Positions 2,540-5,653 of a DNA stretch of 64,000 bases are shown here, piece after piece. This DNA comes from Methylobacter sp. Its GTDB lineage: Bacteria > Pseudomonadota > Gammaproteobacteria > Methylococcales > Methylomonadaceae. The stretch lies in contig JAQUOU010000008.1 in NCBI GenBank assembly GCA_028716975.1, forward strand, positions 77,982 through 141,981. The letters run 5' to 3'. The position numbers and the translations under genes are program-made. The first letter of the stretch is position 1. Every line of letters starts with the position of its first letter. The notes under the pieces were generated by a model. It saw only the letters and a program-made list of their open reading frames with translations, had not been told where the DNA came from and did no database searches.

Positions 2540-3970
2540 ATGCATTATCAGATTCAGGTTCCAAATGCCCGTCCGGCCGGTATAGTTGAAGTTTTTTCAC
2601 CCTATGACGGCAAGCGCGTCGGTTCGGTAGAAGCCATAGATTCGGCGGGCGCCGGGCAGGCGTTAAAGAATATGACGGCGGCTTTCAACGATAGGCGGCA
2701 ATGGTTGCCGGCGCAAGAACGTATCGCTATTCTCGAGCGGGCCGCACTGCTGGTGCGGGAGCGTTCCGAATCGTTAATTGCGCTGGCCGTTGCCGAAGGC
2801 GGCAAGCCTTATCCCGACACGAAGATTGAGCTAAACCGGGCCATTGACAGTATAAAAAGCTGTATTGACTGTATGCGCACTCAACGCGGTTCGGAAATTC
2901 CCATGCAACTCAATCCGGCCTCAATGAACCGCCTGGCCTTCACGCATAGACAACCTATGGGGCCGGTGGTCGCAATTAGCGCCTTCAATCATCCCTTGAA
3001 TTTAATTGTGCATCAGGCGGGGCCTGCTATTGCCAGCGGCTGTCCGGTCATTATTAAGCCTGCCACGCAAACGCCGCTGTCAGCGTTTGCGCTGGCAGAC
3101 ATATTTCATGAGGCCGGTTTGCCGAAAGCCTGGTGCCAACCGGTTGTTGTCAAGGAGTTGGAAGTTGCGGAACAATTGGCAACCGATAAGCGTGTCGCTT
3201 TTTTCAGTTTTATAGGCAGTGCCGCCGTTGGCTGGAGATTGCGTTCACAATTGTCGCCGGGTACGCGTTGCGCTTTGGAACACGGCGGCGCGGCTCCCGT
3301 CATTATCGCCGAAGACGCTAATCTGGATAATATCTTACCGTTACTGGCGAAAGGCGGTTTTTATCATGCAGGACAAGTCTGTGTTTCGGTGCAGCGGGTT
3401 TATGCCCATCGCTCGATTGCTAAAACCGTCGCGGAGCGGTTAGCATCGCTGGCGGAAACTATGATCACAGGTGATCCCGCCAGTGATAAAACCGATATCG
3501 GCCCGTTAATTCGCCACAGCGAAGTTGACCGGGTTGAAACCTGGATCAATGAAGCCTTGCGGGAAAATGCGGCGCTCATGACGGGCGGTAAGCGCTTGTC
3601 CGATTCTCTTTACTCACCGACTGTGTTATTGAATCCGTCCGAACACAGCAAAGTCAGCCGGCAGGAGATTTTCGGGCCGGTCATTTGCGTCTATGAATAT
3701 GATGCTATTGATGACGCCATCACCCGGGCCAATGCCCTGCCGTATGCGTTTCAGGCGGCAGTCGCCACGCAAAATATCGATACCGCCTTGTATGCCTGTA
3801 AGCATTTGGCGGCATCGACAGTTCTGGTTAATGACCACACCGCTTTCCGGGTTGACTGGATGCCGTTCGCAGGCTTACGGGAATCAGGTTATGGGACGGG
3901 CGGCATTCCCTATACCTACCGCGACATGCAAATTGAAAAAATGGTTGTGTTTCATTCTGCGGCGCTTTAA
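2540..3970 (+). CDS. NAD(P)-dependent aldehyde dehydrogenase
   Basis: Aldehyde dehydrogenase superfamily enzyme of 476 aa, the usual length, oxidising an aldehyde to the acid with NAD(P). Visible features are the ISAFNHPLNL motif, the coenzyme-binding region with a FIGSAAVGW stretch, the general base Glu247 in ALEHGGAAP, the catalytic Cys281 in GQVCVSVQRV, and EIFGPVICV near the C-terminus. The glycine-rich LEHGG in place of ELGG and the overall pattern resemble the lactaldehyde or non-phosphorylating glyceraldehyde-3-phosphate dehydrogenase branch, but the substrate cannot be fixed from sequence. The ATG is preceded by AGGAGA 8 nt upstream. The TAA stop lies inside the left terminal repeat of the element at 3967-4330, so that element inserted exactly at the gene end or supplies the stop. 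Confidence 0.9.
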   Translation: MHYQIQVPNARPAGIVEVFSPYDGKRVGSVEAIDSAGAGQALKNMTAAFNDRRQWLPAQERIAILERAALLVRERSESLIALAVAEGGKPYPDTKIELNRAIDSIKSCIDCMRTQRGSEIPMQLNPASMNRLAFTHRQPMGPVVAISAFNHPLNLIVHQAGPAIASGCPVIIKPATQTPLSAFALADIFHEAGLPKAWCQPVVVKELEVAEQLATDKRVAFFSFIGSAAVGWRLRSQLSPGTRCALEHGGAAPVIIAEDANLDNILPLLAKGGFYHAGQVCVSVQRVYAHRSIAKTVAERLASLAETMITGDPASDKTDIGPLIRHSEVDRVETWINEALRENAALMTGGKRLSDSLYSPTVLLNPSEHSKVSRQEIFGPVICVYEYDAIDDAITRANALPYAFQAAVATQNIDTALYACKHLAASTVLVNDHTAFRVDWMPFAGLRESGYGTGGIPYTYRDMQIEKMVVFHSAAL

Positions 3971-4330
3971 TTCTACTTTGTCAGATTTCATTATCACATC
4001 TTCCAAGATCGTCATTCCGGCAGGGAGTCACGTCAGGCACTCCTGCCTGACGCCCTTCGGGTAAATGCTAATCCGTTCCCGACGGATTAGTCACTCCGGG
4101 CTTTCCTGCCCGTAGCCCTGCGAGTAAATGCAAATTCGTTCCAGACGAATTTGTGCCGGACAAATCGGCAGGATAGCCGATTTGCATTTATTACTCGAAG
4201 GGCAATGTACAAGGATGTATATTGTGAATCCAGGCTCCAGGGATGGATTTGAGCTTACCATCCATGGCACTGGATACTCGTTTCCAGCGGGTATGACGGG
4301 CCTGCGTGTAATCTGACAAAGTAGAATTAA
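3967..4330. mobile_element. 364-bp MITE-like element with 21-bp inverted termini and a hairpin array
   Basis: Bases 3967-3987 and 4310-4330 are perfect 21-bp inverted repeats (ttaattctactttgtcagat plus t). The outermost TTAA may be a duplicated target. No transposase or credible ORF lies inside. The interior has four consecutive stem-loops with 9-bp stems and 4-6 nt loops: 4031-4052, 4068-4090, 4131-4153 and 4161-4184. The last three belong to a repeated unit of about 40 nt: direct copies at 4052-4091 and 4115-4154, and an inverted copy at 4160-4203. Size, termini and absence of coding capacity fit a miniature inverted-repeat element; I do not recognise the family. Confidence 0.7.
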
Positions 4331-4360
4331 GGAAGCTCTGGTTAGTTCTTGGCAAGGCTT

Positions 4361-4450
4361 CCTTCGACAGGCTTAGGACGAACGGTTTATGTTGGTTCCG
4401 CTCGTGGTGAGCCCTTCGGCTACGCTCAGGAGAGCCTTGTCGAATCATGA
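4361..4450. repeat. REP-like palindromic repeat
   Basis: Begins ccttcgacaggcttaggacg and contains the inverted partner ctcgtggtgagcccttcggc followed by a run ending gccttgtcgaat. Positions 4409-4445 are the exact reverse complement of 2364-2400. It lies 30 bp beyond the right end of the MITE-like element and just past the 3' end of the M23 peptidase gene. Confidence 0.8.
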
Positions 4451-4495
4451 ATGGAACTCACTTATTCCGAGATTCCTTAATTTTCTATCCCTGAC

Positions 4496-5234: not shown

Positions 5235-5410
5235 CCTTCGACAGGCTTCCTTCGACAAGGCTGGCTCTCCTGAGTGCAATCGAAGGGCTCAGGACGAACG
5301 GTTTTGGTAATTCTGTTCATGGGGAGTCAGCTACGCTCAGCAGGAGAGTCTTATTGATTCCGTTCGTGGTGAGCCCTTCGATTGCACTCAGGAGAGCCAG
5401 CCTTGTCGAA
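5235..5410. repeat. Large REP-like inverted repeat (40-bp perfect arms)
   Basis: Bases 5251-5290 and 5371-5410 are perfect 40-bp inverted copies. The match continues imperfectly inwards through aggacgaacgg (5291-5301) and ccgttcgtggt (5360-5370). An internal partial copy (cagctacgctcagcaggaga) lies at 5328-5347. Folded, this would be a stem of about 50 bp. The surrounding spacer (5018-5653) shows no gene and no clear promoter for sps. Confidence 0.85.
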
Positions 5411-5653
5411 CTATGAGAGGAATCAACTTGTTCATAGGTTGCTTAAGTATCTGGCTGGCTATCTTGGTGTATATCAGGCGGTTTCTATTAGGCCGCTAAT
5501 CGCCGCCGGGATTAAAAACCATTACAACATAACCGCAGACTGGTTAATTCGTTTAAAAATATTGCGCCTTTGGTTGAACCTAATTGGTAGAATCCAAAAA
5601 GAAATGTAATAGCAGCAATAAAAACATTTCAATTCTAATTGACTGGAGCAGTT

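Follow-up and report, generated by a model that had tools for sequence, protein, structure and literature searches.

The element at positions 3967-4330 of the window (the whole stretch of DNA analysed, 64,000 nucleotides from a Methylobacter species) is a genuine MITE, and we consider it highly probable that three layers are nested here: an IS701-type MITE, a pair of CGTC-type REPs, and three copies of a 63-bp hairpin unit that spreads independently. The assignment to the MITEs is confirmed by its short length (364 bp), the lack of a transposase gene, the perfect 17-bp terminal inverted repeats, the dispersed copies, the target duplications and an empty site.

The element lies between convergent genes, directly 3' of the stop codon of an aldehyde dehydrogenase (ALDH) gene; this codon, TAA at 3968-3970, falls inside the left TTAA of the element, which bears out the original prediction of a gene-less element placed directly on the stop codon. 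No gene was found inside 3967-4330, and no Rfam match for the region at E <= 1. The predicted 21-bp perfect inverted ends, TTAATTCTACTTTGTCAGATT (3967-3987) and AATCTGACAAAGTAGAATTAA (4310-4330), are present and reach 24 nt at 96% once mismatches are allowed, but they are composed of a terminal repeat proper of 17 bp (3971-3987 and 4310-4326) and an outer TTAA, which is the target duplication. All four of the predicted 9-bp stems within 154 nt are there as well (4031-4052, 4068-4090, 4131-4153 and 4161-4184), as parts of three repeat units to which the hairpins belong; the main stem-loops in the element number six, plus small ones. The strand of the element folds at -164 kcal/mol (z = -11.1), and none of 100 shuffles was as stable. 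The features are as follows, with G001 standing for another genome of the same genus.

2540-3970, plus strand: host gene, aldehyde dehydrogenase (Pfam Aldedh, E 5.8e-122), with the MITE at its stop codon
3967-3970, no strand: left target-site duplication TTAA, containing the ALDH stop TAA (flanks of paired copies; empty TTAA in G001)
3971-3987, plus strand: left 17-bp terminal inverted repeat TTCTACTTTGTCAGATT (common to intact IS701-family elements)
4010-4022, plus strand: CGTC tag and left arm (ATTCCGGCA) of a CGTC-type REP palindrome whose loop holds the unit array (sequence; definition in PMC3733652)
4028-4090, plus strand: 63-bp hairpin unit 1, with hairpin A at 4031-4052, CCCTTCGGG, TAAATGC and hairpin B at 4068-4090 (covariance model, 87.9 bits)
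4091-4153, plus strand: hairpin unit 2, 63 bp, direct tandem (covariance model, 81.0 bits)
4154-4160, plus strand: right arm of the CGTC REP (TGCCGGA), parted from the AT-CCA end by the inverted unit (sequence; copy comparison)
4161-4227, minus strand: hairpin unit 3, inverted, diverged, 67 nt (covariance model, 54.5 bits)
4268-4298, minus strand: second CGTC-type REP, inverted and degenerate here, the minus strand reading CGTCATACC... (sequence and other copies)
4310-4326, minus strand: right 17-bp terminal inverted repeat (sequence)
4327-4330, no strand: right target-site duplication TTAA (empty site in G001; flanks of paired copies)

Across its own 4.28-Mb genome (G000), the full element has dozens of matches, and the inner 17 bp, TTCTACTTTGTCAGATT, occur 71 times at up to 2 mismatches, versus 3 times for the reversed control. 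Pairing of the ends yielded 31 distinct elements of 147-367 bp. Their 4-bp flanks are identical in 24 cases and differ by no more than one mismatch in 29; many copies with the same ends, as expected of a MITE, are thus present. The flanks seen are TTAA, CTAA, TTAG, TTAT, ATAG and ATAA, with a central TA in 30 of the 31; since they vary around this TA centre, TTAA is the duplicated target and does not belong to the terminus. Behind the same ALDH gene, G001 reads ...GCGCTTTAATTTC..., which has a single TTAA and lacks the element, so that the search for an empty-site allele was successful. The TTAA target proposed from the window is therefore duplicated here and has its empty counterpart, but the general target is NTAN and not TTAA alone. 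A search of related genomes found the terminus in 17 of 61 genomes of the family, genome counts being lower bounds.

A second insertion abuts the MITE. It occupies window positions 4327-4482 (TTAAGGAAGCTC...GAGATTCCTTAA, about 146 bp with 14-bp inverted ends), has TTAA flanks too, and is also missing from G001; its middle is similar to repeats at 2357-2503 and 5280-5452.

Comparison with complete insertion sequences places the termini in the IS701 family and, judged by their sequence, the ends of the MITE derive from IS701-type elements. The IS701 insertion sequences (NF033540, Pfam DDE_5) have the same terminal repeat, TTCTACTTTGTCA, and the same 4-bp TA-centred duplications, whereas the MITE has no transposase gene and its interior is unrelated. 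These ends and duplications are also found on the elements at loci L163, L162, L168 and L161, the last two with open transposase frames. Open transposase frames are preserved in L163 (1465 bp, TTAT on both sides, a 453-aa frame), in L162 (about 1.5 kb) and in 1540-bp elements of genomes G075 and G184; the G075 transposase (P0001, locus L110) matches the NCBIfam IS701 model NF033540 at 3.1e-88. A 965-bp relative in genome G002, with TTAA on both sides, retains only remnants of a DDE_5 transposase. This decayed intermediate makes the contrast drawn earlier, of cargo rather than a shrunken transposon, too sharp: the cargo is real, but the ends derive from IS701. We found no intact element with the MITE ends in G000, which leaves the MITE either stranded or dependent on a diverged enzyme. 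Three PF13546 matches exist in this genome, none joined to MITE ends, and P0001 has no match there at 1e-40. The DDE_Tnp_1 (PF01609) transposases of the genome were also considered as a parent, and none has the MITE ends.

Ordered by length, the copies begin with unit-free ones of about 172 bp and then grow in steps of about 63 bp. The unit-free copies hold two CGTC-type REP palindromes, one of which reads CGTC-ATTCCGGCA-TGGAT-TGCCGGAAT-CCA in copies such as L011, while the second is inverted. A CGTC-type REP is defined by a CGTC tag, an 8-9 bp stem starting A-T, a 4-5 nt loop and a CCA tail (PMC3733652), and the MITE core agrees with this in tag, stem (9 bp, A-T first), loop (5 nt) and tail, arranged as an inverted pair. 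The CGTC-tagged REPs include Neisseria dRS3 and Rickettsia RPE-4 and RPE-6, and a dedicated transposase is not known for them (PMC3733652). Unlike in those systems, the REP is here only a platform, and what sits in its loop is a 63-bp unit without the CGTC tag. Within the MITE, units are placed in the REP loop, or inverted between the REP right stem and the tail, or at the second REP.

The unit consists of TCAY, hairpin A (loop YTTCCT), CCCTTCGGG, TAAATGC and hairpin B (loop TTCCNGA); it starts with TCAYG and ends with ATTTG, ATTAG or ATTGG. Two direct units and one inverted unit are present in the window. A covariance model built from 25 units found 100 units in the same genome at E < 1e-8, and units in 63 of the 121 Methylococcales genomes sampled; in a pattern scan of 84,980 species, all of the matches listed were from Methylococcales. 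About 60 of the 86 units in the loci fetched from G000 belong to this MITE family, and many units are placed in unique DNA. Moreover, a second MITE family of about 465 bp (loci L032-L035, on contigs C10, C2, C7 and C1 of G000), with the ends CCTGATTACGT...ACGTAATCAGG and 8-bp duplications (TAAAAGTT, TAATTATT, TAGGTTTA and TTAATTTT), carries four 63-bp units in each of its four copies. The hairpin cargo is thus not part of the transposon, and the units disperse independently; the idea of a structured cargo holds in a stronger form than was proposed. No units were found in viral contigs, phages or plasmids, and we found no paper on methanotroph repeats of this kind in the open-access literature. 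Many near-identical copies of a repeat were also seen in a Methylomonas MAG (L231, L235, L236, L238, L242, L248, L261, L298 and L310), with one AT-rich unit in a CGTCATCTCGGCAGGGAT hairpin and one unit-free copy at L236:5493-5721; this is likely a recent burst.

The unit inserts precisely and without target duplication. At 28 independent sites in unique DNA, the target consensus is W-T|T-V-M-N-G, with A or T at -2 in 26 sites, T at -1 in 22, T at +1 in 26, never T at +2, and G at +5 in 24; to the right of the insertion point the consensus is similar to TCAYG, with which the unit itself begins. The sites in the MITE, GGAT|TGCCGG and CTGGAT|TCCGGC, obey the same rule. Empty sites in unique DNA number only two, one of them seen in a gapped alignment. 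In the first pair, the comF gene at L296 gains 69 nt relative to L264, between flanks that are about 93% identical; in the second, L250 gains 63 nt relative to L277, and neither gain is accompanied by a duplication. The idea that the insertion targets are all hairpin loops was not supported generally, as the joined flanks, at -3.3 kcal/mol, fold just slightly better than control windows at -2.8 (mean rank 0.47). In the stems of the units, 191 cells show two-sided changes versus 19 with one-sided changes, and among the imperfect pairs G-T (20) is not in excess over A-C (30). Paired changes with no RNA-like preference for G-U point to pairing at the DNA level. This fits hairpins that form in DNA, where an enzyme would recognise them on single strands or cruciforms, or where template switching would keep them symmetrical.

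Units also reside in protein genes. We found 27 unit runs in open frames that extend for 40 codons or more to each side, most of them read in one frame (TNLSGTDLHLPEG..AGKPDM/V); a few of these are probably chance open frames over intergenic copies. The unit amounts to 21 codons in frame, and the 27 runs collapse to a handful of genes. hrcA carries one, two or three tandem in-frame units at the same codon, depending on the Methylobacter genome (L246, L203, L241, L247, L307 and L243), while in-frame units in tilS, pepN and comF were found at L276, L301, L283, L239, L296 and L264. tilS has one or two units; in pepN, the E. coli PepN protein aligns with a gap at the unit position, within the N-terminal region. 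comF has one unit, to which one lineage (L296) adds the second of 69 nt, in the opposite orientation, missing in L264. The only case in G000 itself is a membrane spermidine-synthase-like gene (C32:13775-13837), and less certain hosts are a PvdQ-like acylase and one protein that matched no family. A palindromic repeat lying in frame in unrelated protein genes is the trait of the Rickettsia palindromic elements (RPEs), short repeats found in frame in unrelated housekeeping genes and elsewhere, with an unknown mobiliser (PMC10969869, PMC3767692). The unit shares this behaviour, and we claim no kinship: RPEs are about 100-150 bp and have been described in Rickettsia and Wolbachia, whereas the unit is 63 bp, occurs in free-living methanotrophs, and has a defined target motif and tandem copies. 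The in-frame residence could reflect the survival of harmless insertions rather than a mechanism.

We read the element as follows. The outer layer is a non-autonomous IS701-type MITE whose ends are 17 bp long and whose NTAN target duplication is 4 bp; a DDE transposase of the IS701 family probably moves it in trans. The inverted CGTC-type REP pair between its ends has served as the landing site for the units, three of which form the innermost layer, and both ends of a unit have a hairpin there or close by. The unit inserts precisely and duplication-free 5' of TVMNG (3' of CNKBA on the other strand) and arrays in tandem; any MITE holding a unit carries it along, and in some genomes units sit in frame in genes. 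The evidence above shows the two outer layers, the independent dispersal of the unit, its target consensus and its insertion without duplication. For the mobilisation of the unit, we infer that a recombinase or an HUH-type enzyme acts on hairpin-forming DNA, single-stranded or cruciform, as insertion next to a short motif and without duplication is reminiscent of HUH single-strand transposition or of site-specific recombination; the symmetry of the stems could also come from template-switch correction of palindromes. In the own genome, a RAYT-like tyrosine transposase gene (L171:1348-1887, contig C29) is flanked by a TCGAGG palindrome repeat (GTAGCCTCGAT...), probably as the ordinary GTAG REP system of this genome, and a 144-aa IS200-like transposase (L170:1474-1905, contig C10) has its own hairpin ends, unrelated to the units. 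Both were considered as the source of the units and rejected, as their own ends differ.

A specific form of this mobilisation step is that the units are single-strand mobile elements (HUH, IS200/IS605 or RAYT-type) moved by a Y1 transposase, which we regard as a possible, though less than even, prospect. The hairpins at both ends, the missing target duplication, the DNA-level pairing and the short one-flank motif matching the unit's own terminal sequence are all in keeping with it, and Y1 proteins are encoded in all 15 genomes searched. Indeed, the REP/BIME elements moved by RAYTs (GTAG REPs) are likewise small hairpin repeats, inverted or tandem, without target duplication. Unlike these, however, the unit has no GTAG tag on its ends and does not lie beside RAYT genes: the 30 Y1 loci fetched from unit-rich genomes gave no convincing unit, the RAYT gene of G000 has a different repeat at its flanks, and neither a gene that would mobilise the unit nor an autonomous, longer version of it was seen. 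Because no Y1 gene among the 30 loci carries units, we rate such a mode of mobilisation as less likely than not. It is rather unlikely that homologous recombination or gene conversion among the CGTC-REP hairpins, and not insertion of their own, accounts for the spread of the units. Among the carrier sites the REP loop (GGAT|TGCCGG) is the most frequent, and it offers much homology for exchange, but units also lie in unique coding and intergenic DNA, with exact gains of 63 or 69 nt and no REP flanks.

Still less probable, and already disfavoured, is that the MITE contains the units as its own minisatellite, lengthened and shortened by slippage, the free copies being decayed MITE remnants. The tandem copy number does vary, both in the MITE and at fixed gene sites (1, 2 or 3 in hrcA), and a MITE containing a minisatellite is known: BrickBuilt of Porphyromonas gingivalis, whose interior is likewise made of repeated units (PMC4596501). 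The BrickBuilt repeats, however, are 23 bp and described within that element, whereas here 63-bp hairpin pairs occur outside the MITE as well and in a second family with a different duplication length. Units stand in 28 or more unrelated sites that share one target consensus and lack MITE ends, take three separate positions and both orientations within the MITE, and occur in genomes without these termini by close-match search (e.g., G010, G052 and G043). Selection of the structure as RNA, such as a 3'-end or terminator element of the ALDH mRNA, is very improbable. The place right behind the ALDH stop, where two genes converge, and the very stable fold would suit it, but the element is absent at this locus in G001, Rfam gave no match, units also lie inside coding sequence, and G-U is not favoured over A-C among the imperfect pairs.

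To our knowledge, protein-coding palindromic elements have so far been a curiosity of Rickettsia and Wolbachia, with an unknown mobiliser and no convenient free-living host. We lean slightly towards the view that the unit represents a new family: hairpin elements that stand alone, lack a transposase, follow a target rule of their own (W-T|T-V-M-N-G), cause no target duplication and, in free-living methanotrophs, settle in REPs, in MITEs of unrelated families and in the reading frames of housekeeping genes. On this view, proteins such as HrcA, TilS, PepN and ComF would contain between one and three selfish inserts of 21 residues each. If the unit does behave in methanotrophs as the data suggest, the insertion route of such elements becomes testable, because close species differ in copy number, orthologues with and without the unit are at hand, the target follows an explicit rule and some of the hosts are culturable. 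That one mobile unit rides inside several unrelated transposons would also provide a route by which tiny elements spread without an enzyme of their own.
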